Source: Bacteroidetes bacterium HGW-Bacteroidetes-5 (GTDB lineage: Bacteria > Bacteroidota > Bacteroidia > Bacteroidales > UBA932). From it: a stretch of 64,000 bases of DNA. Below are positions 13,203 through 61,570 of the stretch, piece by piece. Location of the stretch: positions 1,798,001 through 1,862,000 of the forward strand of contig PHDC01000001.1 of NCBI GenBank assembly GCA_002842515.1. The letters run 5' to 3'. Position 1 is the first letter of the stretch, and each line of letters starts with the position of its first letter. The position numbers and the translations under genes were made by a program. The notes beneath the pieces were generated by a model that worked only from the letters and a program-made list of their open reading frames with translations, was not told the DNA's origin and made no database searches.

Positions 13203-13326
13203 AACTGGCAGTGTTATGTGAAACAAGCTGGTGTACAAGTGTTTAAAAATAGGGATTTTGGAAATTGAGAAAAACGCAAAAATTAGTCTACTAATCTACA
13301 AGCACTTACACAGAACACTAACAGTT
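13203..13326. repeat. Inverted-repeat element, 124-bp class, copy D (supplies the mscS stop)
   Basis: The left end reads AACTGGCAGTGTTATGTGAA. The right end, read on the opposite strand, is AACTGTTAGTGTTCTGTGTA. Length 124 bp, the same as the copies at 35302, 53393 and 61447. The right end contains the stop codon and last codons of the mscS-family gene on the minus strand. The interior is about 80 percent similar by eye to the copy at 35302. Confidence 0.8.
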
Positions 13327-14625
13327 GATGCCGGTGGTCCCTTCGTAGAATTGGGGCATCTCGATGCCGGTGGGGTATTGGAAGACTTTTAGGTCGAATT
13401 GGGGTACGATGGCTAGTACGTGGTCGAAGATATCTGCCTGAACTCCTTCGTAGTAGACCCAGTCTTTGTTGGAGATGAAGAAGTAGAGCTCAACCGGGAT
13501 TCCTCGCTCGGTGGGTTGGAGTTGCCGTACCATATGGATCATCTGCTGGTTTACCTCGGGGTGGCGGTTGAGGTACTCGACAAGGTATGCACGAAATACT
13601 CCGATGTTGGTTTGGCGCCGTCCGTTTACCAGGACGGAGTTGTCAATATTGTTGTCTGAATTGTATTGTGCAATTTCTGTCTCTGTCTGCTCTAAATAGT
13701 CGCTCAGGTAGCTAATCTTTTTGAACCTCTCAAGCATCTCCGGGGTACAGAACTTTAGGGTGCTCATATCTATCAGCACAGATCTCTTAACCCGGCGGCC
13801 GCCGGACTCCTTCATCCCACGCCAGTTCTGGAAAGATTCGCTCACCAGAGAGTATGGGGGGAGAGTTGTGATGGTGTTGTCGAAATTCCGGACCTTTACA
13901 GAGTAGAGGCTTATCTCCTCCACATCGCCATCTGCACCATATTTGGGAACGGTAATCCAGTCTCCCTGGCGCAACATATCGTTTGCAGATAGTTGCCACC
14001 CGGCCACAAACCCAAGGATGCTGTCTTTGAAGATTAAAAGCAGAATTGCCATTGAGGCTCCAAGGGCAGCAAAAAGGGAGGTGAACTCTTTGTTAATCAA
14101 GATGCTTAAGATAACAATTGCCCCAACAAAGTAGGCCAAAACGGCTATAATCTGGAATATAACTTTGATCGGCTTGTCTGAGTAGTCTTTGGAGAGGGTG
14201 TAGATATCTGTGAGAGCTTTGGTAGCGGAGTGAACAGCGCGTGTTATAGCAATCACAATAAAGATTTCTGCCCCCTTTTGGAAGACAGTTACCCAAAAAA
14301 CGGAGCGGATTGCTATTGGGGTGGCCACCAGAAAGATTATACCGGGGATAATATGAACCAGAGATTTTATAACCTTGTGCTCGATAAAGGCGTCGTCCCA
14401 TTTAGTAGTGGTGTAACTGGCCAGCCTTACAACCAGCTTGTAGACCACAACCCGGGCAAAGATATCTGCCAGATATGCAATTACAAATAGCAGAGCAACG
14501 CTCACAACCTCATCCAAAACAGATGCAAGGGGTTGTGACACCCCTGCATCTATCAGATATTGATATATTTTGTCAACCACTCCAAAGAGGGCAGTCGCTT
14601 TTGTGGCTATCTCACTCTCTATCAT
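13318..14625 (-). CDS. MscS-family mechanosensitive ion channel
   Basis: A 435-residue inner-membrane channel that would release solutes under hypo-osmotic shock. N-terminal residues 1-190 hold about five hydrophobic segments. The pore helix and beta domain follow: FAALGASMAILLLIFKDSILGFVAGWQLSANDMLRQGDWI in pieces, then GADGDVEEISLYSVKVRNFDNTITTLPPYSLVSESFQNW, a typical MscS beta-domain pattern. The C-terminal soluble domain is of the YnaI/YbdG size class. The final residues NC and the stop codon are encoded by the terminal repeat of element D, so the natural C-terminus may have been replaced. Confidence 0.92.
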   Translation of the reverse strand: MIESEIATKATALFGVVDKIYQYLIDAGVSQPLASVLDEVVSVALLFVIAYLADIFARVVVYKLVVRLASYTTTKWDDAFIEHKVIKSLVHIIPGIIFLVATPIAIRSVFWVTVFQKGAEIFIVIAITRAVHSATKALTDIYTLSKDYSDKPIKVIFQIIAVLAYFVGAIVILSILINKEFTSLFAALGASMAILLLIFKDSILGFVAGWQLSANDMLRQGDWITVPKYGADGDVEEISLYSVKVRNFDNTITTLPPYSLVSESFQNWRGMKESGGRRVKRSVLIDMSTLKFCTPEMLERFKKISYLSDYLEQTETEIAQYNSDNNIDNSVLVNGRRQTNIGVFRAYLVEYLNRHPEVNQQMIHMVRQLQPTERGIPVELYFFISNKDWVYYEGVQADIFDHVLAIVPQFDLKVFQYPTGIEMPQFYEGTTGINC

Positions 14626-14700
14626 AATTATCGGTCAATAATAAATCACACACTCTGTTGCAAATTTTACACTCTATTGTAAATCTCTCCCTAGAAGATC

Positions 14701-17529
14701 TTACAACCAGCCCTCGCAGCTGCACATCAGGTTTCTGTCGCCGTATCCGTTATCTACGCGGGCTACGTGCGGCCAGAATTTGTTGTCGCGAATCCACTCC
14801 AAAGGCCACGCTGCAGTTGTTCTGCTATATTTGTGGTTCCACTCATCTGCAGTAACCTCTCCGGCTGTGTGAGGCGCATTCTTGAGCGGGTTGTCATCTT
14901 TATCCAGTTTGCCCTCTTTGATTGCAATGCACTCTTTTTTAATTGTTTGCATTGCCTCAACAAAACGATCCAGCTCTGCCTTAGATTCGCTCTCGGTAGG
15001 CTCCACCATAAGGGTGTCCACAACCGGGAATGAGAGGGTAGGTGCGTGGAAACCAAAGTCCATAAGGCGTTTTGCCACATCTGTTGCATCTACTCCATAA
15101 TCTTTGCGGAAATCGCGAAGATCCAGAATACATTCGTGAGCAACTCTGCCGCTCTCTCCGCTGTAAAGCGTCTTAAAGTCATCTTTCAATCTTGAAGAGA
15201 CATAGTTTGCGTTGAGTATTGCCACCTCAGTAGCCTTTTTAAGACCATCCGGGCCAAGAAGCTTGATGTATGCGTGGGTGATAGGGAGTGCCATAGGATA
15301 GCCGTAAGGTGCCGAGCTTATAGCCTTAGCCCCCTTTGGATTTCCATTCTCCAGGAACGGGTGGTTAGGCAGATACGGAGCCAGCTCTTTTGTTACGCAG
15401 ATAGGGCCGATTCCCGGGCCGCCGCCACCGTGAGGGATTGCAAAAGTCTTGTGAAGGTTCAGGTGACAAACATCTGCACCGATAACGCCCGGGTTTGTAA
15501 GACCCACCTGGGCATTCATATTTGCCCCGTCCATATAGACCAGACCTCCGTTTTCGTGGATAATATCCATAATCTCGCGGATGCTCTTCTCAAACACACC
15601 GTGGGTAGAAGGATATGTGATCATAAGGCAGGAGAGCCTCTCTTTGTGAAGCATAGCCTTTTCGCGAAGCTCGCCAACATTGATGTTTCCCATCTCGTCG
15701 CACGACACCAGCACTATCTCCATTCCGGCCATTGCTGCAGATGCAGGGTTGGTACCGTGTGCAGATGTGGGGATAATGGCAACAGTTCTCTGGGTATCTC
15801 CTTTGGCAACGTGGTAGGCACGGATTGTCATAAGCCCGGCATACTCACCTGCAGCACCCGAGTTGGGCTGAACAGAGCAGGCGTGAAATCCTGTAATTGT
15901 TGCAAGATCCTGCTCGGTCTCCTCGATAAGCTTCATATAACCCTTAACCTGAGTTGAAGGGACAAACGGGTGAATGTTGGTAATCTCTCCCCAGCTTAGA
16001 GGCATCATCTCTACAGCCGCATTGAGCTTCATTGTGCACGAGCCAAGCGGAATCATAGAGTGAGTAAGGGAAATATCCCTGCGCTCCAGCTTCTTGATAT
16101 AACGCATCATCTCTGTCTCGGAGTGGAACTTGTTAAAAGTGTTCTCTGTGAGGTAAGAGCTCTCTCTTGGCAAATAGAGCTCCGGGGTGAATGCTCCCGG
16201 ACACTCGGTTACAACTTTGCCCGAGAATATTGACAAGATTGTTACAGCCTCCTCGCAGTTAGAGAGCTCGTCAAAACTCATCCTAACAGTGGTAGAGCTT
16301 GGGTAGTAGAAGTTCATCTTCTTCTGCTCTGCTTTGGCCTTAATGGCTGCCGCATCTACTCCGGTAACCTCAATTGTGTCAAAGAAATTATCTGCAGAGA
16401 GCTTAAACCCGAGTTTTTTGAGCTCTGCAGCTACAGTGTGCGCGTAGGTATAAACTTTGGTTGCAATATCTTTAACCCCTTTCGGCCCGTGATAGACTGC
16501 ATACATCCCTGCCATAGTTGCCATAAGGGCAGTGGCTGTGCAGATGTTTGAAGTTGCCTTCTCTCTCTTTATGTGTTGTTCGCGGGTCTGGAGAGCCATC
16601 CTCAGTGCACGGTTGCCGTGCCTGTCTACAGATACTCCAATAATCCTTCCCGGCATATTTCTCTTATACTCGTCACGGGTGGCCATAAAGCCGGCAGTCG
16701 GACCGCCAAAACCCATAGGAAGACCAAACCTCTGTGCGGTTCCTACAGCAATATCTGCACCCCAGGCAGCAGGCTCCTTAAGAAGAGCAAGTGCCAGCAG
16801 ATCTGTAACGGCAGTAACCAAAACACCCTTTGAGTGGGCCGTCTCACAGAACTGTGAGTAGTCGCGAACCTCTCCGTTGGCTGCAGGATATTGCAAAACA
16901 GCGCCAAAGCACATATCATCAAACTGATAAGATTTGAAATCTCCGGTAACAACCTTTATCCCCAGAGCCTCTGCCCTGGTCTCAATAACCGCAAGAACCT
17001 GCGGGAATATGTTTACATCTGCAAATACTATATTTTTGCCCGCCTTTTGTGCATCTCGTGAGCGGAGTTCATACATCATTCTCATCGCCTCGGCCGCAGC
17101 AGTTGAGTCATCCAGCATCGAGCTGTTTGCCATCTTGAAACCGGTGAGTGTAGAGACCGTTGTCTGGAAATTGAGAAGAGCCTCCAGACGACCCTGTGAG
17201 ATCTCTGCCTGATACGGAGTGTAAGAGGTGTACCAACTTGGGTTCTCAAAAACATTTCTCACAACTACCGGAAGAGTGCCTGTACCATAGAAACCAAGCC
17301 CTATCATAGAACGAAAAGCATCGTTCTGGGAGACCATAGATTTAAGTTTTGATAAATATTCTTGTTCACTCATTGCACTGCTTATTGCAAGAGGTTTTGT
17401 GATTAGAATATCCGATGGAACGGTTTGTTTTACAAGCTCATCCAGATTATTAATCCCAATTTCCGCAAGCATTTCTACGATTTCGCTTTCACGCGGACCA
17501 TTGTGTCTTTCAACAAAAGGAATTGACAT
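14701..17529 (-). CDS. gcvP: Glycine dehydrogenase (decarboxylating), P-protein
   Basis: A single-chain 942-residue P-protein, which decarboxylates glycine with PLP and passes the aminomethyl group to lipoylated H-protein. The N-terminal half begins FVERHNGPRESEI and contains the GFYGTGTLPVVVRN region. The C-terminal half has the PLP-binding motif HLNLHKTFAIPHGGGGPGIG with the lysine at about residue 694. It ends in the usual NRNLMCSCEGW. Other gcv genes are not adjacent. A minus-strand TACATTTG -7 box lies at 17570-17577. Confidence 0.97.
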   Translation of the reverse strand: MSIPFVERHNGPRESEIVEMLAEIGINNLDELVKQTVPSDILITKPLAISSAMSEQEYLSKLKSMVSQNDAFRSMIGLGFYGTGTLPVVVRNVFENPSWYTSYTPYQAEISQGRLEALLNFQTTVSTLTGFKMANSSMLDDSTAAAEAMRMMYELRSRDAQKAGKNIVFADVNIFPQVLAVIETRAEALGIKVVTGDFKSYQFDDMCFGAVLQYPAANGEVRDYSQFCETAHSKGVLVTAVTDLLALALLKEPAAWGADIAVGTAQRFGLPMGFGGPTAGFMATRDEYKRNMPGRIIGVSVDRHGNRALRMALQTREQHIKREKATSNICTATALMATMAGMYAVYHGPKGVKDIATKVYTYAHTVAAELKKLGFKLSADNFFDTIEVTGVDAAAIKAKAEQKKMNFYYPSSTTVRMSFDELSNCEEAVTILSIFSGKVVTECPGAFTPELYLPRESSYLTENTFNKFHSETEMMRYIKKLERRDISLTHSMIPLGSCTMKLNAAVEMMPLSWGEITNIHPFVPSTQVKGYMKLIEETEQDLATITGFHACSVQPNSGAAGEYAGLMTIRAYHVAKGDTQRTVAIIPTSAHGTNPASAAMAGMEIVLVSCDEMGNINVGELREKAMLHKERLSCLMITYPSTHGVFEKSIREIMDIIHENGGLVYMDGANMNAQVGLTNPGVIGADVCHLNLHKTFAIPHGGGGPGIGPICVTKELAPYLPNHPFLENGNPKGAKAISSAPYGYPMALPITHAYIKLLGPDGLKKATEVAILNANYVSSRLKDDFKTLYSGESGRVAHECILDLRDFRKDYGVDATDVAKRLMDFGFHAPTLSFPVVDTLMVEPTESESKAELDRFVEAMQTIKKECIAIKEGKLDKDDNPLKNAPHTAGEVTADEWNHKYSRTTAAWPLEWIRDNKFWPHVARVDNGYGDRNLMCSCEGWL

Positions 17530-17624
17530 ATAGTTCTATTTATTAAGTTATTAAATCGGTTTAGAACTACAAATGTAAATAAAAAAATGCACAAATTGTG
17601 TATTAAAATAATTTCATATTTTTG
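17530..17624. promoter_or_regulatory. Divergent promoters for gcvP and the carboxylase beta gene
   Basis: The minus-strand box TACATTTG at 17577-17570 serves gcvP; the plus-strand box TATTTTTG at 17617-17624 serves the carboxylase. Between the gcvP start and its box lies an 8-bp inverted repeat, TAGTTCTA (17531-17538) and TAGAACTA (17562-17569), which could be an operator or a 5' leader stem. No glycine riboswitch was recognised. Confidence 0.5.
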
Positions 17625-17645
17625 TGCGTAACAAAACTAAAACCT

Positions 17646-19196: not shown

Positions 19197-19248
19197 TGGA
19201 GTGTCAGTTTTTTAGAGAATCCGTTCAACTTTTTTAATAAGATAAAGA

Positions 19249-35108: not shown

Positions 35109-35177
35109 CCTTGCCACGCGGGTAACCTTGCCAAGCATCGTGGGAAGTATCTGATAATCAGCGATAGGAATAAAAAC

Positions 35178-35292
35178 GCGCAGCGGAAAACAAACCCGTG
35201 AAACGGACCACTTTACCGCGTAGCGGAAAACAGACCCGCGCAGCGGACCGCACACCCGCGTAGCGGAAAACACACCTGCGCAGCAGACCGCC
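35178..35292 (+). repeat. Degenerate tandem array of the REP-like word
   Basis: About six units of roughly 20 bp with consensus GCGYAGCGGAAAACACACCC. Some units are decayed (for example GTGAAACGGACCACTTTACC). The last unit carries the TGCGCAGCAGACC ending seen at 11461 and 58052. Single units occur at 11440, 13165 and 58030, always beside inverted-repeat elements. Confidence 0.7.
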
Positions 35293-35301
35293 GGAAAATT
35301 C

Positions 35302-35425
35302 AACTGGCAGTGTTATGTGAAACAAGCTGGTTTACAGATATTTAAAAACAGGTATTTTGGCAATTGGGAAAACTGCAAAAACTATTCCATTAATTTACAA
35401 AGACTTACACAGAACACTAACAGAT
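35302..35425. repeat. Inverted-repeat element, 124-bp class, copy E
   Basis: The left end AACTGGCAGTGTTATGTGAA is identical to copy D, and the right end contains CTTACACAGAACACTAACAG, also as in copy D. Total length is 124 bp, the same as copies D, F and H. It lies 23 bp from the stop codon of the leftward DUF4153 gene. Confidence 0.8.
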
Positions 35426-35448: not shown

Positions 35449-36798
35449 CTAGTTGGCCGGCTGGTTTAGGGAATCGGCCGGTTGGGTAAGTGAATCGCTT
35501 GGCTGGATAAGTGAATCGCTTGGCTGGATAAGTGAGTCGGCCGGCTGAGTTAGTGTATCTTTTAGCTTGAGGTATTTACGGACGTTGTGGATTCGGTTGT
35601 AATCTGCCTTCAAGGCCGCATCAAAGTTTGGGTCTCCCTCTTTTGGCAAAATGGTGTCGGGGGAGATGTTGAGCTTTTGTTCAAGCATCTGCAACTCTTG
35701 GCGTTGGGATTTTTCGCCGATTGTTTTTGCGGATATTCCGGGAATAAATGTGAAGATGGAGAGAGAGATTATGGCAATATAGCAGAGGTAGAGGTAGAGG
35801 CTGCTTTTTTTGAACATCTGCATTAAAGTTGCAACGGTGAGGATGGCGCCACTGACGAAAAGATATACCCTGGCCTCGGTGAACCCGTACTCATACACAC
35901 GCTGGATGGCGCCTAACCAAAAGAGAATCAGTGGAATGATGAAGAGGGGGTAGAGGTATTTGTAGAATTTGACAAATATTTGTTTTTCGGTGATTCCGGT
36001 GAGGGCTTTGACAAGGATGCCGGAGATTACAAATGCGTTTACGATTATTGCCAGTTTCCCGTTGGGCAGGGTGAATGTCACGACGATTTTTGCAATGTAG
36101 AGGTAGATGATTGCGGCAAATATTACAAGAGCCGGGGTTAGGATGTAATTAACAGCCGGTGTGCAGATTATATTTCGAATTTTGGTTATTTGTGTCGATA
36201 GTGCGCTCTCTTCGGTTTCGTCAGATGCGTAGAGAAAGAGTAGTGGGGTAGAGAGGATTAGGATTATGTTCATTACCCAGAAAGCGCTGTCGTTTATTAA
36301 TTTATCCGGGAACTCAAACAGCTCTGAGGTAGAAAAGAGTATGGCCATTGCAATGAGAAAGGTGGGTAGAGTTATTGCAAAGGAGGCGGCAACCCTGGAT
36401 GCGAAATTTATGAATGTTTCGGTAATAGTTCTGTTGTCGCGCTCCCTGCGGAATGATGCAATAACCAGCAGTGTGATAACTATGGTTGCCGCATAGGCCG
36501 GCGAATAGAGCCATTCACTAAGGTCAATCAGGAATATCGGAATGAGGGTTAATGCAGATAGGTAGTAGATTGCCCTTTTGATGTTGTTCCCGGGAAAAAG
36601 CCGGTTGAGGATGTATGGAATTGCAAATAGAACAGGTGCCGACAAAAAATTCTCTCCCAGAAGTTCGGGCAGCAGCACCTTGTGGTAAGTTAGCACTGAG
36701 AGCAGAAAATAGGCAATCGCGACAATCACCTCAACAGGGTTTAGAACCACAATGGTTACTAATGCTTTAAGGAGCTTTGAGTTACCGGGTGTTTTCAT
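35449..36798 (-). CDS. DUF4153-type polytopic membrane protein with heptad repeat tail
   Basis: A 449-residue inner-membrane protein with about ten hydrophobic segments, matching the Bacteroidota DUF4153 pattern (TFTLPNGKLAIIVNAFVISGILV, then the GAIQRVYEYGFTEARVY segment). Its function is unknown. The C-terminal cytoplasmic tail ends in four full copies and one partial copy of a 7-residue unit, LTQPADS/LIQPSDS, encoded by 21-bp repeats at 35452-35553. It lies 12 bp downstream of the LytTR regulator gene, so it is probably in the same operon and may be controlled by or linked to that system. Confidence 0.82.
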   Translation of the reverse strand: MKTPGNSKLLKALVTIVVLNPVEVIVAIAYFLLSVLTYHKVLLPELLGENFLSAPVLFAIPYILNRLFPGNNIKRAIYYLSALTLIPIFLIDLSEWLYSPAYAATIVITLLVIASFRRERDNRTITETFINFASRVAASFAITLPTFLIAMAILFSTSELFEFPDKLINDSAFWVMNIILILSTPLLFLYASDETEESALSTQITKIRNIICTPAVNYILTPALVIFAAIIYLYIAKIVVTFTLPNGKLAIIVNAFVISGILVKALTGITEKQIFVKFYKYLYPLFIIPLILFWLGAIQRVYEYGFTEARVYLFVSGAILTVATLMQMFKKSSLYLYLCYIAIISLSIFTFIPGISAKTIGEKSQRQELQMLEQKLNISPDTILPKEGDPNFDAALKADYNRIHNVRKYLKLKDTLTQPADSLIQPSDSLIQPSDSLTQPADSLNQPAN

Positions 36799-49659: not shown

Positions 49660-52335
49660 ATGATAAAAATTCTACAAAGAGTATTTTTAATTGCAGTGAT
49701 GCTAATCTGCACTATTTCAACTATTAAGGCAAGTAGTGTTTCCGGCAAACTTGGTAAGGGTGAGCAATCTGAGGTTTTAAATATAGAGGTTGTTCGGGGC
49801 GTTGTGTTGGACGAAAATGGCCGGGGTGTTGCGGGGGTTGTGGTGTCGGATGGGTTTTGGGTGTGCAAGAGTGATGCGGGTGGGCGATTTTCGTTTGTGC
49901 CGACGGAGCGGGCGAGGTTTGTGTTTATGAGTACGCCGGACGGTTATGAGCAGGTGGGGAGTTTCTTTTACAGGATTGATGGCAAGGGGATTGATGGAAA
50001 AGGGGGTATTGATAGTGTGGATGGTGCAGATGAGTTGGTCTTTAGGGTGGTTAAGAGTGAGGCGAGAGATGCTGAGAGTCCGGCGGTGCGTTCGGAGTTT
50101 TTGCATTTGGGTGATACTGAGGCGAGAATCCATAAGGATTGGGTGGATGTGCTTAAGGAGTATGTTGTCTATAACAGGCCTGCGTTTGTGCTTTTCAATG
50201 GGGATATCTGCTATGAGAATGGGTTGAGGTTTCACGCCCGGGAGCTCACTTCGGGAAATCTGGGGGTGAGAGCTGTTTACACATTGGGGAACCACGATTT
50301 GGTAGATGGTGCCTACGGCGAGGAGTTGTATGAAGAGTTGTTCGGGCCGGTGTGGTACTCATTTAACAGCGGTGGGGTTCACTTTGTTAACATCCCTGTA
50401 CTGCAGGGAGATAGAAAGCCCTCCTATAGTGCAGATGATGTATACGCCTGGCTAAAAAAAGATCTGGATGCAATACCTGTGGGTATGCCGGTTATTTTGA
50501 TGGATCACCATTTTGTAGGTTATGGAGATGATTTCCATTTAAAAGGGGAGAAGGTATCTGTAAATCTTCTGGATTATAATCTCAAGGCCTATCTGTATGC
50601 CCATTATCATATTAATCTATTGGAGAGATCTCCGAGGACGGGTGTAACGACCATTGCAACTATGTCTCCCAATAAGGGTGGGATAGATCACACCCCATCC
50701 TCCTTTAGGCTGATAAAATTTGACCGCAACGGGAATCTGGGTTCGGAGATACGTTACGCATCGCTGAAAGGGCATATCGCAGCTACAATCTACCCGGCAA
50801 ATATTTTGGGAAAGGGATCATCTGCAAAAGACAAATTACCTGCAAATAAGAAATTATCTGCAAACGAGAATGCATCTGCAAAAAACAAATTATCTGCAAA
50901 CGAGAAAGAATCTGCAGATAGTAGTTATGAGCTGATAGCCAATGTCTATGACACACGAACGGAGGTGGCGGAGGTGACGGCTAGGTTTAACGGGGCAGAT
51001 TATCATCTGCAGAAAGTGAGTGAATGGACTTGGCGGGCTACGCTTCCGGGTGGGGAAATGGCTGGCGGGAAAGGTGCTTTGGGGATGGCTTCCGGGAAAG
51101 GTGCATCGGGAAAGATTTCTGGAGATGGCGCTCTGGGGATGGCTGGCGGGGCAGTTGTGACGGCGAAATTTGGCAACGGGATGGTTGTGAAGGGGGTGGC
51201 GAGGGTGCCTGCAGATATTGGGGAGTTCACTCCGCGCAAGGAGGATGCCTTTAGGCCGGCAATCAAGTGGGTGACATCTTTGGGGAGCCATACATTTATG
51301 ACATCGCCTTTGGTAGTGGGAGATTTGGTGGTATCTGCAACTTTTGACGATAATGGGAAGGGTGGGAGTGCGATTCACGCGATGCGCAAAAGTGACGGGT
51401 CGGTTGTTTGGAGGGTGCCTCTGCTCAACTCTGTCAAGAACAATATGGCGCTTTGGGAGGGGACTCTGCTTGCGTGTGATGTGGTTGGAAATTTGTATGC
51501 GATTGAGGCATTATCGGGGAGGGTTATGTGGAGCAAATCTTTGCGGGAGAAGGAGTTGCATCCTGTTTATACTCAGGGGGTGACAGTTCACAACGGGATT
51601 GTTTATGCGGGTCACGGTCATTATCTTACGGCGCTTAAGGTCTCAAACGGAGAGGTTTTGTGGAAGAATACGGCTTGGCGGGGTGGTGTGTGTACCGTGG
51701 CCTCCCCTGTGGTGGAGCCGGAGTCCGGCGTTCTGCTCACAGCGGCATACTGGACCGGGAGGTTTGCACACAATGCCGTTACCGGAGAGCTTTTGTGGGA
51801 GAAAAGGGACGATGATACCAGGATTGCAGATAACTCGCCTGTTTTCTTTAAGGGGAGGTTCTTTTACGCTTCGCCGGGTCATATTATGGAGGTAGATCCT
51901 TTGAGCGGCAAAGAGTTGGTCAAGCACGCGATCAATTATACCATTAACAACAACTCCCGCCCTGTGGTGACCGATAAATTATTTATTGTAGGGACTACAG
52001 ATAAGGGGGTTGCAGCATTTGACCGGGAGAACGGGTACAAAGAGCTCTGGAATTTCAAAACCAATCCGGCTCTAATTTACACTGCGCCATATACCAAAGA
52101 TTTTCAGATGACTGTAGAGAGCGGGGCGTTTTTGGACAGAGTGGCTATTACCGGCGAGGAGGTGATCTATTTTGGTGCAAATGACGGGTATCTGTATAGT
52201 GTGAATGCGCGTAACGGGGTTTTCCGCTGGCGGATAAACCTTGCGGCTCCTGTTTTGGGGAATATTGTGGTTAGTGAAGGGGTTTTGTATGCGTCAGATT
52301 TTGCGGGGAATGTTTGGGCGATTTCTGTGAATTAA
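49660..52335 (+). CDS. Exported metallophosphoesterase fused to a PQQ-type beta-propeller
   Basis: An 891-residue secreted protein. After a signal peptide, residues about 45-110 form a carboxypeptidase-regulatory-like domain (VVRGVVLDENGRGVAGVVVSDG). The calcineurin-like domain follows: LHLGDTEARIH (the His of the usual DxH is not in place), FNGDICYENG, TLGNHDLVDG, LMDHHFVGYG and YAHYHINL. The C-terminal 370 residues are a PQQ-like propeller (AIEALSGRVMWS; YSVNARNGVFRWRINL). Three in-frame repeat tracts interrupt it: IDGKG units (49975-50027), six 18-bp units (50818-50925) and Gly-rich 27-bp units (51055-51153). Much of the coding strand is markedly G-rich. The substrate is unknown. Confidence 0.85.
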   Translation: MIKILQRVFLIAVMLICTISTIKASSVSGKLGKGEQSEVLNIEVVRGVVLDENGRGVAGVVVSDGFWVCKSDAGGRFSFVPTERARFVFMSTPDGYEQVGSFFYRIDGKGIDGKGGIDSVDGADELVFRVVKSEARDAESPAVRSEFLHLGDTEARIHKDWVDVLKEYVVYNRPAFVLFNGDICYENGLRFHARELTSGNLGVRAVYTLGNHDLVDGAYGEELYEELFGPVWYSFNSGGVHFVNIPVLQGDRKPSYSADDVYAWLKKDLDAIPVGMPVILMDHHFVGYGDDFHLKGEKVSVNLLDYNLKAYLYAHYHINLLERSPRTGVTTIATMSPNKGGIDHTPSSFRLIKFDRNGNLGSEIRYASLKGHIAATIYPANILGKGSSAKDKLPANKKLSANENASAKNKLSANEKESADSSYELIANVYDTRTEVAEVTARFNGADYHLQKVSEWTWRATLPGGEMAGGKGALGMASGKGASGKISGDGALGMAGGAVVTAKFGNGMVVKGVARVPADIGEFTPRKEDAFRPAIKWVTSLGSHTFMTSPLVVGDLVVSATFDDNGKGGSAIHAMRKSDGSVVWRVPLLNSVKNNMALWEGTLLACDVVGNLYAIEALSGRVMWSKSLREKELHPVYTQGVTVHNGIVYAGHGHYLTALKVSNGEVLWKNTAWRGGVCTVASPVVEPESGVLLTAAYWTGRFAHNAVTGELLWEKRDDDTRIADNSPVFFKGRFFYASPGHIMEVDPLSGKELVKHAINYTINNNSRPVVTDKLFIVGTTDKGVAAFDRENGYKELWNFKTNPALIYTAPYTKDFQMTVESGAFLDRVAITGEEVIYFGANDGYLYSVNARNGVFRWRINLAAPVLGNIVVSEGVLYASDFAGNVWAISVN
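50818..50925 (+). repeat. In-frame 6 x 18-bp tandem array with ATCTGCA core
   Basis: Six consecutive 18-bp units of the form TTATCTGCAAACGAGAAA encode SSAKDK, LPANKK, LSANEN, ASAKNK, LSANEK and ESADSS. The ATCTGCA word is exact in most units. The tract lies in the linker between the phosphoesterase and the following beta-domain. Confidence 0.85.
51055..51153 (+). repeat. In-frame Gly-rich 27-bp tandem repeat
   Basis: Three and a half units of 9 residues (EMAGGKGAL, GMASGKGAS, GKISGDGAL, GMAGGA). The tract sits between two beta-strands of the phosphoesterase/propeller protein, suggesting a flexible loop expansion. Confidence 0.75.
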
Positions 52336-52404
52336 TATAAGTATGATTATAATAATTGTTATATTAACGTAGAATTATAATCGTAACGATAATAACAAGC
52401 TATG

Positions 52405-52430: not shown

Positions 52431-52445
52431 CAATTTTAGGTGGAT

Positions 52446-53417
52446 ATGGTTTATAAAGAGTTTATTGAGAGGGTTGTGGAGATGGGGGGCCATCTTTATG
52501 GGAAGGAGGAGGGGCGGGCGATAGCCGCAAGGCTATTGCAGCACTTTTGCGGGATAAGTGCTTATGAGCATTTGGTGGAGCCTTACGCTGCAATTGCGCC
52601 CGAACATATTGGTGAACTCGAAAGTGCTGCGCAGCAGATTGCTGCCGCCCGCCCACTCCAGTACATCCTTGGTTACCAAGAGTTTCTTGGGCTAAAAATC
52701 TCCGTTGAGGAGGGCGTACTCATCCCCCGCCCCGAGACCGAAGAGCTTGTCAGCTGGGTCCTCAGCCAAATCACCACCCGGAACGGCCAGGCTGCCACCC
52801 TGAGAATTCTTGACGCGGCCTGCGGTTCGGGTTGTATTGCCGCTGCCCTGAAGTGCAATCTGCCGCAGTCACAAATCTTTGCCTGTGACCTGTCGCCCAA
52901 AGCACTTGAAGTAACGGCACGCAACCTATCTTCTTTGCACAATCATTCATCTGCACTTGAAAGTTCATTTGCGTACGAAAGCTCATCTGCACCAAATCAC
53001 TTATCTGCACTTGAGTATTCATCTACGCCCGAAAAATTATCTGCACAAAATGTTTTTAGTTACGATTTGCTAAAATCTCCGGAAGGGTTTCCGGTTGGCG
53101 ACCTTGACATTATTGTGAGCAACCCTCCTTATGTCAAAGAGTCGGAGAGGGCACAAATGAGATCCAATGTGCTTGATTATGAACCCTTAGAGGCGCTTTT
53201 TGTGCCGGAGGAGGACCCTCTGCTCTTCTATCGTGCACTTGAGCGATTGGCATCTGCAACACTAAAACCCACAGGGGCAATCTTTATGGAGGTAAACGAA
53301 AATCTTGCAGTTGAAACGGCCGCGATTTTCGAAGAGGCTGGTTACACAGCAGTCGAGATTAAACGCGATATTTTTGGTAAAGCCAGGATGGTAACTGGCA
53401 GACTTTTGAGTAATTAG
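52446..53417 (+). CDS. prmC: Release factor glutamine methyltransferase with repeat insertion
   Basis: PrmC methylates the GGQ glutamine of peptide release factors. The roughly 323-residue protein has the N-terminal helical domain, LQYILGYQEFLGLKI, VLIPRPETEELVSWVL, the SAM loop LDAACGSGCIAAALK, and the catalytic VSNPPYVKESE. Between strands 3 and 4 of the Rossmann core, where the family has a short loop, six 18-bp units (52947-53054) encode SSALES, SFAYES, SSAPNH, LSALEY, SSTPEK and LSAQNV. The last eight codons and the stop lie inside the 124-bp element H. ATG 52446 is preferred to GTG 52440. Confidence 0.93.
   Translation: MVYKEFIERVVEMGGHLYGKEEGRAIAARLLQHFCGISAYEHLVEPYAAIAPEHIGELESAAQQIAAARPLQYILGYQEFLGLKISVEEGVLIPRPETEELVSWVLSQITTRNGQAATLRILDAACGSGCIAAALKCNLPQSQIFACDLSPKALEVTARNLSSLHNHSSALESSFAYESSSAPNHLSALEYSSTPEKLSAQNVFSYDLLKSPEGFPVGDLDIIVSNPPYVKESERAQMRSNVLDYEPLEALFVPEEDPLLFYRALERLASATLKPTGAIFMEVNENLAVETAAIFEEAGYTAVEIKRDIFGKARMVTGRLLSN
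52947..53054 (+). repeat. In-frame 6 x 18-bp tandem array in prmC with ATCTGCA core
   Basis: Six 18-bp units of the form TCATCTGCACTTGAAAGT. Unit length, copy number (108 bp in total), reading frame and the ATCTGCA core are the same as in the array at 50818-50925 in the neighbouring gene; the other positions differ. Confidence 0.85.
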
Positions 53418-53516
53418 CTGTTTATCTGCAATATAAAAAAGCCACTTATTTAAATTCCTTAAAATGAATTTTTTAAATGCCTTGTAATTAAAAAGTTTCA
53501 CAAAACTCTGCCAGTT
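53393..53516. repeat. Inverted-repeat element, 124-bp class, copy H (encodes the prmC C-terminus)
   Basis: The left end AACTGGCAGACTTTTGAGTAA minus its last base and the right end (on the opposite strand) AACTGGCAGAGTTTTGTGAA are inverted repeats with few mismatches. Length is exactly 124 bp. Near the left end TATCTGCAATATAAAAA matches the reverse complement of the right arms of copies F and G, so H is inverted relative to them. The prmC residues TGRLLSN and the stop are read from the left end. Confidence 0.75.
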
Positions 53517-53529
53517 CAAATTTTTTTTA

Positions 53530-53537: not shown

Positions 53538-53553
53538 CCCCGAAGAAAAAACG

Positions 53554-53706: not shown

Positions 53707-53797
53707 TTTCTCCCGGTGAGCAAAAAACCGCAACCACAAAACACAATCTGCAAACAAAACCTAAAATAAAATTCAATATTTTCTAAAAACAAACAAG

Positions 53798-55099
53798 ATG
53801 AAAACAACCAAAAAATTCCAGCTCGCAGAGAGCGAAATCCCGAGGCAATGGTATAATATTGTGGCAGATTTGCCAAACCAGCCCCGTCCTTTACTTAACC
53901 CACAAACCAGAGAGCCGCTTAAACCACAAGAGATGGAGGGGCTGTTCGCAAAAGAGTTGGTGGCGCAGGAGTTCTCTGCTCAGCGATGGATTGACATTCC
54001 GGATGAGATTGTGCAGCTTTATAAGATTTACCGGCCGACGCCACTTGTGAGGGCTCGTAAACTGGAGAAGGCTCTGGACACTCCGGCGAAGATCTATTTC
54101 AAAAATGAGAGTGTAAGTCCTGTGGGGTCTCACAAACTAAACACTGCAATTGCGCAGGCCTATTATAATAGTAAGCAGGGAATTATGAGACTCACTACCG
54201 AGACTGGTGCCGGTCAGTGGGGCTCTGCAATGAGTGTTGCGTGCGGGTACTTCGGGATAGAGCTGGTTGTTTTTATGGTTAAACAGAGTTATGAGCAGAA
54301 ACCCTACCGGAAAATTGTTATCAATACATATGGGGGAAAAGTTCACGCTTCTCCATCATCTTTAACTAATTATGGTCGGAGTGTTTTGGAGAGTGATCCC
54401 GGGTGCAGGGGTAGTCTTGGGATGGCAATCTCGGAGGCGGTAGAGATGGCCGTGACCACACCCGACACTCGTTACTCTTTGGGCAGTGTTCTCAACCACG
54501 TCCTTTTGCACCAGACTATTATTGGTCTTGAGGCCGAAAAGCAGATGGAGATGACAGGCGACTATCCCGATAAGGTGATAGCCTGCTTTGGAGGCGGCTC
54601 CAACTTCTCGGGAATCTCCTTCCCTTTTCTCAGGCACAAACTTACGGGGGGGCGCTCTGTTGAGCTAATTGCTGCAGAGCCGGCCGCTTGCCCAAAGCTT
54701 ACACGAGGTGTGCTGGAATATGACTTTGGCGATACCGCAGGAATGACTCCGTTAATTCCAATGTACACCCTGGGCCACGACTTTCAGCCCGAACAGATTC
54801 ACGCCGCCGGCCTCCGCTACCACGGTGGTGGACAAATTGTTAGCCAGCTTAAACTAGATGGTTTTGTAAACTCCTGTGCAATAGAACAGCAAGAAACTTT
54901 TGCCGCCGGCCGGCTCTTCGCCAAAACCGAAGGGATAATTCCTGCCCCGGAATCCTGCCACGCCATTGCCGCAACCATCCGCGAAGCCCTTAAAGCCAAA
55001 GAGGCCGGCCGCAGCGAAGTGCTGCTCTTCAACCTCTCCGGCCACGGCCTGCTGGATATGGCAGCCTACGAAAGTGGTTGTCCTGACAGTATTTTGTGA
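53798..55099 (+). CDS. trpB: Tryptophan synthase beta chain, TrpB2 type
   Basis: A 433-residue PLP enzyme that condenses indole with serine. The N-terminus LAESEIPRQWYNIVADLPNQPRP in pieces and the extra length mark the TrpB2 class rather than the trpA-coupled TrpB1. Residue Lys113 in VGSHKLNTAIAQ is the PLP lysine; TETGAGQWGSA, GGGSNFSGISFPF and LFNLSGHGLLDM are also present. No trpA or other trp gene is nearby. The Trp-codon leader upstream argues that it really acts in tryptophan supply. The final codons SIL and the stop are part of element G. Confidence 0.93.
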   Translation: MKTTKKFQLAESEIPRQWYNIVADLPNQPRPLLNPQTREPLKPQEMEGLFAKELVAQEFSAQRWIDIPDEIVQLYKIYRPTPLVRARKLEKALDTPAKIYFKNESVSPVGSHKLNTAIAQAYYNSKQGIMRLTTETGAGQWGSAMSVACGYFGIELVVFMVKQSYEQKPYRKIVINTYGGKVHASPSSLTNYGRSVLESDPGCRGSLGMAISEAVEMAVTTPDTRYSLGSVLNHVLLHQTIIGLEAEKQMEMTGDYPDKVIACFGGGSNFSGISFPFLRHKLTGGRSVELIAAEPAACPKLTRGVLEYDFGDTAGMTPLIPMYTLGHDFQPEQIHAAGLRYHGGGQIVSQLKLDGFVNSCAIEQQETFAAGRLFAKTEGIIPAPESCHAIAATIREALKAKEAGRSEVLLFNLSGHGLLDMAAYESGCPDSIL

Positions 55100-55205
55100 A
55101 ACGCATTGTTTATAAGGCACTTGAAAAACCCATATTGGCAAAAACGCCAAAATGGGTTTTTTTATATTGCAGATATACAAATATTTACACAAGATACTGT
55201 CAGCA
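55081..55205. repeat. Inverted-repeat element, 124-bp class, copy G (contains the trpB stop and a terminator)
   Basis: The ends CTGACAGTATTTTGTGAAAC and, on the other strand, CTGACAGTATCTTGTGTAAA are inverted repeats. Inside, AAAACCCATATTGGC (55125-55139) and GCCAAAATGGGTTTT (55146-55160) form a stem with one mismatch followed by Ts, a good intrinsic terminator for trpB. The right arm TATATTGCAGATATACAA is shared with copy F. The trpB TGA is at 55097-55099. Confidence 0.78.
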
Positions 55206-55209
55206 CAAA

Positions 55210-56457: not shown

Positions 56458-56534
56458 AAAAGAGTTAATTTGGAGTAAAGTTTAAATTTATCTAAAACTA
56501 TATTTAAAAACAAATCAAAAACTATCTTTTTTTC

Positions 56535-56542
56535 TACATTTG
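56535..56542 (+). promoter_or_regulatory. -7 box for the EamA transporter gene
   Basis: TACATTTG matches TAnnTTTG, 19 bp before the ATG at 56562. Confidence 0.55.
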
Positions 56543-56561
56543 CGACTCAAAACTCTGTTAA

Positions 56562-57629: not shown

Positions 57630-57691
57630 ATTGGCGTAACCTTCTCAAGGTTCTTGTGAATTTGGGGATATAATCACTTTAAGTTAGGGAC

Positions 57692-57819
57692 AACTTTGGC
57701 AGTGTTTGATGTAAATCCTTAATAATCAATGGAAAGCAAAAGGCAGTTTTCCAATTATGGAAAATAGCAATTTGCAATTTGTTGTATGCAAACTACTTAC
57801 ATCAAACACTGGCAAAGTT
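57692..57819 (+). repeat. Inverted-repeat element, 128-bp class, copy C
   Basis: The ends AACTTTGGCAGTGTTTGATG and, on the other strand, AACTTTGCCAGTGTTTGATG form a 22-bp inverted repeat with one mismatch. The distance between the GCCAGTG cores is 116 bp, as in copies A and B. The interior keeps AAAAGGCAGTTTTCCAAT but has otherwise diverged. Confidence 0.8.
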
Positions 57820-57912
57820 TAACTAAAGTTCCCCACGTGCTTAAACGCCACATTTACAGCTAATAGCTATATAATCTCTCGGTTTTTTTGTATAGCACAG
57901 ATGACCGCATTC

Positions 57913-58019
57913 ATCTCAGAGCTATAGTGCCAAACATCAGATTTTAACCTACTTACACCAAATACGCTATTTGTGGTAATTCCCTGATATTAAGCAAATT
58001 GGAACTACAACTCTGAGAT
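57913..58019. repeat. Inverted-repeat element I
   Basis: The ends ATCTCAGAGCTATAGTGCCA and, on the other strand, ATCTCAGAGTTGTAGTTCCA are inverted with four mismatches. Length 107 bp. The end sequence is not related to the CAGTGTT class. Confidence 0.65.
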
Positions 58020-58027
58020 AAATCTCT

Positions 58028-58064
58028 CCCGCGCAGCGGTAAACACACCTGCACAGCAGACCGC
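58028..58064 (+). repeat. REP-like GC-rich word between elements I and J
   Basis: GCGCAGCGGTAAACACACCT followed by GCACAGCAGACCGC, nearly identical to the copies at 11440 and 13165. Confidence 0.65.
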
Positions 58065-58069
58065 ATCAT

Positions 58070-58185
58070 TGGGAGTTTTTTGTAATTAATTGTAATTCAA
58101 AGATATAGACCAGATGACTTTGCGTTTGGGATGGAGTTGATAAGAGCTATATATCACAAAATATGCATAATACAAAAAACTCCCA
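58070..58185. repeat. Inverted-repeat element J
   Basis: The perfect 15-bp ends TGGGAGTTTTTTGTA and its complement are 116 bp apart outside to outside. The ends differ from the other elements, but the size matches the core length of the A-C class. It lies 39 bp from the radA stop. Confidence 0.7.
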
Positions 58186-58224
58186 GGGATCTTTAGCAAA
58201 GACCCCCCTAGATTATTGCCATTA

Positions 58225-59661
58225 TTATTTAAATAGTTTGCGCACCAGCTCGGGAATATCCTGGACGGTTACGACCTCAATTGAGTGGGATTTGAGGGCT
58301 TTGGCAGATGCGGTGGTTGATGGTTTGTCGATAGCCGTAGTTGATTGTTTGCCAATTGCCGATGTTGATGGTTTCCCGAATGAGGAGATGAAGATTTTTT
58401 CGAAGCCGAGCTTTTCGGCCTCTGCAATGCGGCGCTCGATTTGGGCGACGGGGCGGATCTCACCGCTCAGGCCAACTTCTGCGGCGAAGCAGATGCGCTG
58501 GGAGATTGCAACGTCAAAGTTGGAGGAGAGGATGGCGCATACGACAGCCATATCGCAGGCGGGGTCGGTTACCTTGAGGCCACCGGCCATATTGAGGAAG
58601 ACATCTTTGGCAGAGAGGTGAAACCCGGCTCTCTTCTCCAGCACTGCAAGCAGCATATTTGTACGGCGCACATCGAAGCCGGTGGCCGACCTTTGTGGCG
58701 TTCCGTATGCAGCTGTACTAACCAGAGCCTGAGTCTCTATCAGGAATGGGCGCGAGCCATCCAACATTGCTGCAACGGCAATTCCGGAGAGGTTCTCTTT
58801 GTGCATCGGGATGAGCATCTCCGAAGGGTTGCTCACCTCGCGCAGCCCGGTGTTTATCATCTCAAAGATGGCTAGCTCGGCGGTAGATCCAAATCTGTTC
58901 TTGATGCTGCGTAAAATCCTGTATGAGTGGCGTGTATCCCCCTCAAACTGGAGTACCACATCTACAATATGCTCCAGAATCTTTGGCCCGGCAATCATTC
59001 CATCCTTGGTGATATGCCCAATCACAATTATGGGAGTGTTTGTCTCCTTGGCATATTTGAGCAGGGCGGCGGCCGATTCACGAACCTGGGTCACAGAGCC
59101 GGGCGAGCTCTCAATTACTTGAGAGTATACTGTTTGAATTGAGTCTACAATTATGAGTTGAGGCTGGTTTTCGTTTGCCCTGTTGAGGATATTCTCCAGA
59201 AGGGTTTCACACAAAATGTAGCAGTTGTCGTGTATGCCGCCCAGCCTTTGTGCACGCAGCTTAATCTGTTTGGCGCTCTCCTCACCGGAGACATAAAGGG
59301 TCTTAAGGTTGGGGCAATGCAGAGGAATCTGCAGTGAGAGTGTAGATTTGCCAATCCCGGGCTCTCCGCCTATTAAAACCATAGAGCCCAAAACCAACCC
59401 GCCACCCAGAATTCTGTCCAGCTCATCGTTCCCTAACGAAATCCGGTGCTCATCTGTAAAGCTGATGTCTGAGAGAGGTTGTGGCCTAGAGTTCTGGACA
59501 GGAAGGAAGCTCATACTCCTGGCACCTGAACCTCCGCTATCTTTGGAGATAATCTCCTCCTGCAATGTATTCCACTCCCCGCACGCAGGACATCTGCCCA
59601 GCCATTTTGCACTCTCATTGCCACAAGATGTACAAAACCAGCCCTTTTTGATCTTTGCCAT
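58225..59661 (-). CDS. radA: DNA repair protein RadA (Sms)
   Basis: RadA is a RecA-like helicase that promotes branch migration in recombinational repair. The 478-residue protein has the C4 zinc finger (CTSCGNESAKWLGRCPACGEW in pieces), Walker A GGEPGIGKSTLSLQ, the RadA-specific KNRFGSTAE motif, and the C-terminal Lon-like domain (GLSGEIRPVAQIERRIAEAEKLG in pieces). Near the end, after EKIFISSFG, three 24-bp units (58309-58380) encode the repeat xGKPSTSA where the family has a short loop. ATG 59661 (MAKIKKGWFC) is used. A minus-strand TATATTTG -7 box lies at 59682-59689. Confidence 0.95.
   Translation of the reverse strand: MAKIKKGWFCTSCGNESAKWLGRCPACGEWNTLQEEIISKDSGGSGARSMSFLPVQNSRPQPLSDISFTDEHRISLGNDELDRILGGGLVLGSMVLIGGEPGIGKSTLSLQIPLHCPNLKTLYVSGEESAKQIKLRAQRLGGIHDNCYILCETLLENILNRANENQPQLIIVDSIQTVYSQVIESSPGSVTQVRESAAALLKYAKETNTPIIVIGHITKDGMIAGPKILEHIVDVVLQFEGDTRHSYRILRSIKNRFGSTAELAIFEMINTGLREVSNPSEMLIPMHKENLSGIAVAAMLDGSRPFLIETQALVSTAAYGTPQRSATGFDVRRTNMLLAVLEKRAGFHLSAKDVFLNMAGGLKVTDPACDMAVVCAILSSNFDVAISQRICFAAEVGLSGEIRPVAQIERRIAEAEKLGFEKIFISSFGKPSTSAIGKQSTTAIDKPSTTASAKALKSHSIEVVTVQDIPELVRKLFK
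58309..58380 (-). repeat. In-frame 3 x 24-bp tandem repeat in radA
   Basis: Three 8-residue units, FGKPSTSA, IGKQSTTA and IDKPSTTA, in the C-terminal Lon-like domain. The DNA units are about 75 percent alike, so the expansion is not recent. Confidence 0.78.
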
Positions 59662-59681
59662 AAACAAGAAATATTGATTAG

Positions 59682-59721
59682 CAAATATAGCAATTTAGAT
59701 TTCCATTTTCTATTATCTTTG
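59682..59721. promoter_or_regulatory. Divergent -7 boxes for radA and the serine hydrolase
   Basis: The minus-strand TATATTTG at 59689-59682 serves radA; the plus-strand TATCTTTG at 59714-59721 serves the gene at 59773. Confidence 0.55.
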
Positions 59722-59772
59722 TGACCGTTGCCGGCAGATAAGTAATCTCCGGCACTTAAAAACCGGACAAAT

Positions 59773-61452
59773 ATGAGAAGAATTACCGCCCTATTAATGC
59801 TGCTCTTTTTTATTCAGGCAGCAACCCTAAGTGGTCAGGACAATGATGTAATTGTCAAAAAAATTGTAGATTACGCCAAAGAGGTTCAAAAGCTTTGGCA
59901 GATTCCGGGAATGGCCATCTCCATTGTAAAGGATGGCAAGATGATCTGGTCGGGGGGGCTCGGTGTGAAAGAGAAGTGCGCAGAGTGTGGCGAGAAGCAG
60001 GTGGACGCAAATACTCTGTTTCAGATTGGCTCTGTTTCAAAATCTTTTACCGCGGCGGTGATGGCCTCGCTAGTAGATGAGGGGAGGGTTAAGTGGGAAG
60101 ATACAGTAAAAAATATTCTGCCCGATTTCAAAATGTACGACAAGTGGGTGGAGAGTAACCTCCAGGTTAAGGATATTATGACACACCACTCGGGGCTTCA
60201 GGGCCAGCTTGGAACCTATATTCCGAATATGGGTTACGGGAGGGAGGATATCTGGAATATGCTGCCGTTGCTTAAGCCAAAGTACAGCCTGAGAGGCTCA
60301 TACGAGTATAATAACATCACGTTTATAATTGCTTCAAAGATAATTGAGAAGCTTACAGGCAAAAGTTGGGAAGATAATGTGAGAGAGCGCATCTTCAAAC
60401 CTCTCGGGATGAGCTCGAGCAGGGTTATCGGGGATGAGTTCAAGGCTGCCCAAAATGTGTCAACACCTCACGAATTTGTCTACAAAAAGGGGAGGATGCT
60501 CTCAGATACCACCTGGGTAGATTCTGTGGCCGTAAATGCTCTTTACGGCGATGAGCAAGCGCTTCACTGGCTTACCGTAGTGGGCCCGGCAGGCTCCATC
60601 AGCTCTACTGCAAACGATATGGCAAAGTATACCCTCTTCCACCTTAATAAGGGGCTTGCAGATGGTAACCAGGTTATATCAAAGGAGCAGGCGAACTATC
60701 TGCGTAAAGGGCATACAATTACCTCGCAGGACTCTTCAAGGATAACTCTCTATGGTCACTGCTGGTTTATTGAGCAGAACAGCCGTTACAGGGTGATATT
60801 CCACACGGGAACTACCTGGGGCTTCACCACCCTTTGCGCATACTTCCCGGAGATGGATCTTGGAATAACAATTCTCGTTAACTCGGAGGCTCCGGCATTC
60901 CCTCGTTATGCGATAATGAGGCGGATGATAGATCTTTACAAAGGGTTTCCGGACAAAGATTACAACAAACTCTTCTACGAAGAGTGGCTAGCATCTGCCC
61001 GCAAGGGGATGAGAACAGCCGACAAAAAAGCGGCAGAGGAGGCAAAAGAGGCCTCTCCGGATATCAAACTCCTCACCGGCACTTACGACAAAGGGGTCCT
61101 CTTTGGAAAGGCCGTTGTTACGCTTGAGAAGAGTTCCGAGAGCGATGCGGGCAACGCCGCCAAAGCACATCAGGGGTCAAAATCTGCAGTAGATCTCAAA
61201 TCCCCGGTGGCGCAGCAGGGGTCAAAATCTGTAGTAGATCTCAACGCAGCAGAAAATCTCTACATAACAGTTGGGCCAAAGGGTTGGAAGAGCAAGCTCA
61301 CCCACAAAAACGGCAATGAGTTCACATTCCGGATGGATGGAAATGAGTTCAAGGTTAAGTTTGTGAAGGATAGCAAGAGCGGGAAGTTCAATGGGCTGGA
61401 TATAGATTTTGGCTACACCGAGAATTTTGGTGTATGGAGCAAATTGAACTAG
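59773..61452 (+). CDS. Class C beta-lactamase-fold serine hydrolase
   Basis: A 559-residue exported protein (signal ITALLMLLFFIQAATLSGQ). The hydrolase domain has the active-site SxxK in GSVSKSFTAAV, the YxN motif in YEYNNITF, and a HxG-type third motif in FHTGTTWGF. This architecture is typical of peptidases/esterases rather than drug resistance. A C-terminal DUF3471-like beta-domain follows from about residue 430, interrupted by a 45-bp x 2 repeat (61171-61260; QGSKSAVDL, QGSKSVVDL). The stop codon TAG is inside the left end of element F. Confidence 0.87.
   Translation: MRRITALLMLLFFIQAATLSGQDNDVIVKKIVDYAKEVQKLWQIPGMAISIVKDGKMIWSGGLGVKEKCAECGEKQVDANTLFQIGSVSKSFTAAVMASLVDEGRVKWEDTVKNILPDFKMYDKWVESNLQVKDIMTHHSGLQGQLGTYIPNMGYGREDIWNMLPLLKPKYSLRGSYEYNNITFIIASKIIEKLTGKSWEDNVRERIFKPLGMSSSRVIGDEFKAAQNVSTPHEFVYKKGRMLSDTTWVDSVAVNALYGDEQALHWLTVVGPAGSISSTANDMAKYTLFHLNKGLADGNQVISKEQANYLRKGHTITSQDSSRITLYGHCWFIEQNSRYRVIFHTGTTWGFTTLCAYFPEMDLGITILVNSEAPAFPRYAIMRRMIDLYKGFPDKDYNKLFYEEWLASARKGMRTADKKAAEEAKEASPDIKLLTGTYDKGVLFGKAVVTLEKSSESDAGNAAKAHQGSKSAVDLKSPVAQQGSKSVVDLNAAENLYITVGPKGWKSKLTHKNGNEFTFRMDGNEFKVKFVKDSKSGKFNGLDIDFGYTENFGVWSKLN
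61171..61260 (+). repeat. In-frame 2 x 45-bp repeat in the serine hydrolase
   Basis: Two units begin with CAGGGGTCAAAATCTG at 61171 and 61216. They expand a loop of the C-terminal domain. Confidence 0.7.
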
Positions 61453-61570
61453 CAGTGTTTTGAGAAACACTTTGATAATGAGACTCTTGAAAAACCAGTT
61501 TATAGAATTTTACCAAATTAGAATTTTTATATTGCAGATATACAATTATTTACACAAAACACTGTTAGTT
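61447..61570. repeat. Inverted-repeat element, 124-bp class, copy F (supplies the hydrolase stop)
   Basis: The left end AACTAGCAGTGTTTTGAGAA and the right end (other strand) AACTAACAGTGTTTTGTGTA are inverted repeats with few mismatches; TTG/CAA flanks extend them. Length 124 bp. The right arm shares TATATTGCAGATATACAA with copy G. The TAG in AACTAG is the stop codon of the hydrolase. Confidence 0.82.

Follow-up and report, generated by a model that had tools for sequence, protein, structure and literature searches.

Scattered along a 64,000-nucleotide stretch of DNA from Bacteroidetes bacterium HGW-Bacteroidetes-5 (contig PHDC01000001.1, positions 1,798,001 to 1,862,000; hereafter the window) are five inverted-repeat elements of 124 to 125 bp that are positioned at the 3' ends of genes. 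The question raised by this locus is what these elements are and how they came to occupy such positions. In the first-pass annotation they were described as non-autonomous mobile or terminator-like elements that target gene ends. The present analysis retains a non-autonomous, dispersed family of fixed length and provides it with a candidate enzyme, but lends no support to the targeting of gene ends. These fixed-length palindromic elements of uncultured Bacteroidota are probably, at a rough probability of 0.8, doublets resembling REPINs (repetitive extragenic palindrome, or REP, doublets forming hairpins) that are mobilized in trans by a REP-associated tyrosine transposase (RAYT). Given that no GTAG-tagged REP hairpins were detected, they would represent a variant that is closer to the TIRYT/TIRtron systems, which are named for their terminal inverted repeats (TIRs).

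Two families of elements with a fixed length

All five elements, which belong to a first family designated A, were recovered exactly where they had been annotated, and their alignment, flanks included, displays a mean column identity of 71%. The shared end is encountered seven times at two or fewer mismatches, as compared to 0.70 expected, and none of 100 shuffles reached seven. A repeat search of the window revealed three additional palindromes of the same size, overlooked in the earlier reading, which belong to a second family, B. The inner end is CAGTGTTTTGTGWA in family A and CAGTGTTTGATGWA in family B. By eye, the arms of the two families carry common motifs in register, and the families thus look homologous.

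For the source genome of the window (G000), genome-wide end searches were followed by the pairing of ends across about 236 kb of stretches. Pairs were accepted at an inner distance of 111 to 113 bp, together with one copy of 63 bp, and pairs at any other spacing were regarded as chance matches or internal partners. The resulting 37 elements comprise 21 of family A and 16 of family B, and a model search located one more B copy at C3:8748-8883. In the 36 full copies the inner ends are separated by 112 bp in 31 cases, 111 bp in three, and 113 bp in two; the 63-bp inner length belongs to a B copy that is internally deleted. A scan of a species-level genome collection for B doublets, with the gap left free over 31 values, yielded 20 elements in two related metagenome-assembled genomes (MAGs), 19 of them at the usual length and the remaining one shorter by a single base. 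Exact A doublets were found in three of 299 genomes of the taxonomic family, all three in one genus and of equal length. The narrow length peak that had been named in the first-pass annotation as a check is thus present in the paired stretches, and two inverted ends held at a narrow, fixed spacing are what is expected of a REPIN.

Most ends occur as doublets: of the 22 A-end matches at one mismatch, 19 belong to full elements, and the remaining three include the end next to the RAYT gene described below. In pairwise comparisons the 112-bp copies are on average just 64% identical in family A and 70% in family B, and the length of the element is therefore steadier than its sequence. Orthologous pairs show 0.12 gap openings per substitution (nine element pairs) versus 0.21 for 38 control gaps, a weak difference because several of the gaps counted in the elements fall at the edges of alignments. 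Neither plasmids, queried with an A element, nor phages, queried with a B element, yielded a match.

A candidate RAYT-type partner gene

The first-pass annotation had noted no transposase in the window; a candidate is present elsewhere in the genome. There are three Y1_Tnp genes in G000, and the RAYT-type Y1/HUH protein, with its match at C1:1380701-1381510, scores over the Y1_Tnp cut-off. The sole NCBIfam model matched is 'REP-associated tyrosine transposase', with an E-value of 7e-15 that is under the curated cut-off. A B element ends about 50 bp upstream of the gene, and a lone A-type end lies about 55 bp past its stop codon. The H-x-H (HUH) and Y-x-x-x-N-P motifs are invariant across 18 aligned RAYT proteins, the latter being given as the class 2 signature in the cited part of PMC6006769. 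Weak helix-turn-helix matches, all below cut-offs, fall in the C-terminal region at residues 217-263.

In HGW-Bacteroidetes-8 (G168) and in the C8 MAG (G186), full A-like elements flank the RAYT orthologue on both sides. In both genomes the RAYT reading frame enters the downstream element and terminates at a TAG within the element end. By eye, the RAYT stop codon lies within an element end at loci L176 and L178, within other palindromic ends at L177, L179, L183, and L186, and just ahead of a repeat at L185, L198, and L199.

The neighborhoods of 31 distinct RAYT loci, out of 54 match rows, were scanned with element matches accepted at E-values up to 0.05, and for this reason several of the elements near RAYT loci are weak. 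At 18 of the 31 loci an element is located within 350 bp of the RAYT match; seven loci have elements on both sides, and at 11 an element lies no more than about 11 bp from the 3' end of the match. The RAYT is thus flanked by the same repeats, as in REPIN systems, though not at every locus. The same counts (both sides at seven, at least one side at 18) describe a RAYT-like gene flanked by long inverted repeats that are not REPs, as in TIRtrons and TIRYTs. Across 25 genomes of the genus, the B model matches 19, the A model 20, and either model 20. A RAYT homologue, at an E-value of 1e-5 or better, is present in 22 of them, RAYT and elements together in 19, and neither in two.

The RAYT and its element are paired in a type-specific manner for two further types in the genus, each of which is scattered through its own genomes and has no matches in the others tested. 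For the L198-type element, G143 has matches at 21 distinct places and G111 at 22, a large share of them partial (40 candidates were scored per genome), and there are no matches in G000 or G198. The L179-type element is found at 10 places in G010 and four in G224, with no matches in G000 or G168.

Gene context and stop codons

In two contiguous regions containing 32 elements, 17 lie between convergent genes, 13 between co-directional genes, and two between divergent genes; the background of intergenic bases is 9.6% convergent, 62.9% co-directional, and 27.5% divergent. For all 37 elements the corresponding numbers, based on crude calls of open reading frames (ORFs), are 19, 11, and five, with two elements having no neighbor on one side. 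The statement that no element lies between divergent genes is consequently valid for the window but not for the genome. The placement is extragenic, with the 32 elements overlapping ORFs of at least 100 amino acids by 40 bp or less. When ORFs of at least 80 amino acids are considered, two larger overlaps of 83 and 211 bp appear, both with ORF calls that are probably false.

Of 23 sites, with shared ones counted once, 12 carry a stop codon at the edge of the element, as compared to 24% of random intergenic points (P = 0.003). When gene context is matched, the expectation rises to 38% (P = 0.12). A 3'-end location and short gaps by themselves predict the 38%, so an additional stop-codon signal is not established, and stop-codon targeting as a separate signal was rejected. 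There is thus no support for an active choice of gene ends or stop codons as targets, and selection after insertion explains the 3'-end and convergent bias equally well. Repeat-supplied stop codons need not imply gene-end targeting.

The stops supplied by the elements include TAA, TAG, and TGA. According to section 15 of PMC3733652, the termini of GTAG REPs likewise often provide flanking ORFs with their TAG stop, and these REPs occupy mainly convergent and co-directional gaps, the convergent ones mostly lying less than 20 bp from both 3' ends. The present elements differ from them in end sequence and in the use of all three stops. At C1:1691244, about 58 bp between the AACTTTG of the gene and the AACTTTG of the element are present in HGW-Bacteroidetes-8 and missing in G000, and as a result the G000 gene now stops inside the element. 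The stop overlap at this site looks secondary, if the direction of change has been read correctly.

Proposed mechanism and alternative explanations

In the mechanism that we propose, the unit would be a doublet of two inverted recognition ends with a fixed length, about 130 bp overall. The RAYT, a Y1/HUH single-strand transposase encoded elsewhere and with its own gene flanked by copies of the element, would replicate and move such doublets. It would bind and nick the single-stranded ends and insert copies without a target duplication; in keeping with the first-pass annotation, no target-site duplication was evident, as judged by eye only. The end-to-end distance would be kept while the interior drifts because the RAYT acts on both ends. 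Copies would survive mainly 3' of genes, since upstream insertions would harm promoters, and those downstream could end up giving stop codons, either directly or via deletions that reach the element edge.

A number of observations weigh against this explanation. At 13 of the 31 RAYT loci the 350 bp on either side are free of elements, three of the 25 genomes contain a RAYT homologue without elements, and one contains elements without a RAYT match. Because the models for the A and B elements derive from copies in G000, G168, and G186, matches in these genomes are partly by construction. Any assignment of family B to a particular RAYT is tentative, and there is no element model match near the remaining two Y1 genes of G000. 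A comparison of the RAYT profile with PDB sequences matched no TnpAREP structure and nothing else of relevance. The copy number is modest (37 by pairing plus C3:8748-8883 by model), that is, tens rather than the hundreds per genome associated with REPINs; many published REP families number 20 to 100 units (cited part of PMC3733652). With respect to the ends, the folding of seven single ends is no more stable than that of shuffled sequences (z of -1.3 to +1.3), and no GTAG or CGTC tag is apparent by eye in the end alignments. A REP-type end, namely an imperfect palindrome with a GTAG-type guide tetranucleotide, was not found. Arm covariation in family A does not go beyond that of shuffles, and a selected long hairpin was accordingly rejected; the arms match equally well within and between B elements. 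Because single ends form no stable hairpin and the A arms lack covariation beyond shuffles, the ends appear to act like terminal inverted repeats and not like REP hairpins. Finally, no clean empty site was observed among the sites compared between relatives: three absences in G000 leave remnants, and the other comparisons align poorly. Recent transposition is therefore presumed rather than demonstrated.

Terminal inverted repeats, a length of about 130 bp, non-coding sequence, and dispersed copies would also befit classical miniature inverted-repeat transposable elements (MITEs), that is, deletion derivatives of a DDE insertion sequence that keep its terminal inverted repeats, the transposase being lost or located elsewhere. 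The only transposase genes found beside the ends, in several genomes and with type-specific ends, are RAYTs, however. At five loci where unpaired ends or sites resembling ends occur (L022, L023, L060, L065, and L091), ten ORFs match ordinary gene families. Near the examined unpaired ends no autonomous insertion sequence was seen, and no duplication by eye, although no exhaustive insertion-sequence search was made. A MITE origin is thus considered unlikely. Slightly less likely still are immobile bidirectional terminators or structured RNA elements under selection at convergent gene ends. The strong 3'-end and convergent bias would suit such elements, as would the B copies, in which a strong central palindrome is flanked by A and T runs and the folding z of the three window copies is -7.7 to -11.9. 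For the window A copies the values are -1.0 to -3.9 in four of five and -9.7 in the remaining one. The terminator-like character suggested in the first-pass annotation is accordingly plausible for family B, which may also serve as a bidirectional terminator; among the five window A copies the case is weaker for four. A terminator has no need of long conserved terminal repeats, however, and the A interiors are mostly non-palindromic (44.7% of cells paired). Copies adjoin RAYTs, their sites vary between relatives, and the families are RAYT-linked; furthermore, no Rfam family was matched at the gathering score.

The 124-bp palindromes that follow genes might instead bring to mind the recombination sites of a cassette system, similar to attC. 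A HipB/HipA-like gene pair (hipBA) lies between two B copies of the same orientation, the halves of different B copies look shuffled by eye, and the DNA adjoining copies varies between relatives. Such a system is nonetheless highly improbable: the elements are scattered next to unrelated genes across the contigs searched, with no arrays, and some of the junctions resemble deletions at short shared sequences. To our knowledge, the A and B ends do not fit attC boxes.

Comparison with known systems

The doublets, probably mobilized by a RAYT, can be compared with the cited portions of three published accounts. In Pseudomonas fluorescens SBW25 (Bertels and Rainey 2011, PMC3116915), REPINs are likewise inverted doublets of fixed spacing, with peaks at 71 and 110 bp. 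They are extragenic, their interiors are less conserved than their ends, their length is critical, and a RAYT is nearby. The A and B elements differ in that their ends lack a recognizable tagged hairpin core and in that they number in the tens, whereas there are hundreds in SBW25. Compensatory changes are common in SBW25, in contrast to the arms studied here, where covariation is not seen.

In the TIRYT/TIRtron systems (Di Nocera et al. 2013, PMC3733652), as here, a RAYT-like gene lies within terminal inverted repeats that are unrelated to REPs. The repeats are dispersed in some genomes, with some dimers or clusters, and in some cases a repeat beside the transposase gene extends into it. None of the TIR examples given in the cited part of that report comes from Bacteroidota, and the present case differs in its fixed-length doublet unit and in its several element types across one genus.

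With regard to the TnpAREP proteins (PMC6006769), the Y1 core with its class 2 Y-x-x-x-N-P motif is shared, and the weak C-terminal helix-turn-helix signal, below cut-offs, may recall subclass 2.1, near whose genes the cited part of the report mentions no REP-like sequences. The motif, YIL.NP in most aligned rows, fits neither printed consensus exactly, and the RAYT is class 2 by motif and not by formal classification. Subclass 2.6, from Bacteroidetes, is similar in that its flanking structures are atypical and recur at other places in the genome.

In the literature compared here, RAYT-REPIN populations have been described mostly from Proteobacteria. Apart from the remark on subclass 2.6 (PMC6006769), no fixed-length REPINs of Bacteroidota were noted among the matches listed in the open-licence literature. 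We tentatively suggest, at somewhat less than even odds, that the Bacteroidota harbor an undescribed class of RAYT system. In this class the replicating unit would be a doublet with a fixed length of about 130 bp, recognized through linear terminal repeats in place of GTAG hairpins, the repeat would provide the stop codon of the transposase gene itself, and RAYT and element would have co-diversified into genome-specific families across one genus. If true, such a system with hairpin-less ends at RAYTs would suggest that the doublet rather than the REP hairpin is the general unit, and the genus would offer several natural RAYT-element pairs for recognition tests.

Elements in the window

The first A element (13203-13326, minus strand; inner 112 bp at 13209-13320) holds the stop of a mechanosensitive-channel gene (13318-14625, minus strand; mscS in the first-pass annotation). 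The second (35302-35425, minus strand) sits between convergent genes, one of which ends at 35449, about 23 bp away. The third (53393-53516, plus strand) holds the stop of a PrmC-like gene (52440-53417). The fourth (55081-55205, minus strand), with an inner distance of 113 bp and a strong central hairpin, holds that of a gene for a PALP enzyme (53798-55099; previously trpB). The fifth (61447-61570, minus strand) holds the stop of a gene for a beta-lactamase-family serine hydrolase (59773-61452). The ORF ends thus bear out the earlier assignment of a stop codon within the terminal repeat for four of the five elements and its separation of about 23 bp for the other.

The three B elements are all on the plus strand. 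Two of these, at 11302-11429 (inner 112 bp at 11310-11421) and 13041-13168 (inner 112 bp at 13049-13160), lie in the same orientation to the left and right of hipBA (11579-13010, plus strand), and the left end of the former gives the upstream gene its TAA. The HipA domains were identified by Pfam, HipB is assigned from its position, and the pair is context rather than part of an element. The outer ends of the third B element, at 57692-57819, both match (AACTTTG).

Turnover and possible recombination

A contig of HGW-Bacteroidetes-8 is syntenic with a segment of G000, the high-scoring segment pairs longer than 800 bp totaling 252 kb at 86.5% identity. Elements at shared sites account for nine of 17 and nine of 16 in two syntenic regions, and the shared pairs are 76 to 99% identical, a range suggesting that replacement or in-place conversion of copies may occur at times. 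Fifteen elements are unshared between the contig and the segment. Seven of these were compared base by base: the absence at H 273600 leaves a remnant in G000, and the other six junctions are replaced, diverged, or ambiguous. Three more were inspected, including the G000 A element at 13203 and a site occupied by B in one of the genomes and by A in the other. Outside the junction comparison are H 38050, 186504, 315397, and 322319, and X 1937833. Loci L103 and L117 provide two further losses with remnants in G000.

Several breakpoints coincide with element edges. At the hipBA locus, three genomes vary in the amount of DNA ahead of the left edge of B, the differences being about 1 and 2 kb; deletion would be the simpler direction of change. 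The C8 MAG is without about 770 bp of the hipA region (window 11302-13168; L108; L111).

In G000, two very similar A copies, at C2:217734 and C2:229146, bound about 11.4 kb of DNA, and the C8 MAG (L109 2147-5308) seems to join both outer flanks of this segment around one A copy. Such an arrangement suggests gain or loss by recombination between copies. Some B copies combine, by eye, the left half of one copy with the right half of another (L104, L114, L119, L120; G000 C2:123909), as if the halves had recombined at the central palindrome.

Neighboring repeats

In two G000 contigs a B-type end lies no more than about 94 bases from the contig terminus (C1:1-94; C2:506902-506995), and these repeats may therefore break the assembly. 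Another kind of dispersed repeat, about 370-420 bp long and with ends like CTAAAGTTCCCCAC and GTGGGGAACTTTAG, adjoins B elements, at differing positions, in G000 and HGW-Bacteroidetes-8 (window 57820-58191; L111 5447-5819; G000 C1 left of 1937833). Short intergenic runs of GC-rich units, each about 20 bp long (CGCGNAGCGG NAAACACACC), occur at window positions 35177-35296, 13167-13200, 11442-11481, and 58030-58069, and some of these runs directly adjoin A or B elements. Lastly, 18-bp tandem repeats of the ATCTGCA type, at window positions 50819-50916 and 52948-53045, overlap two long ORFs.

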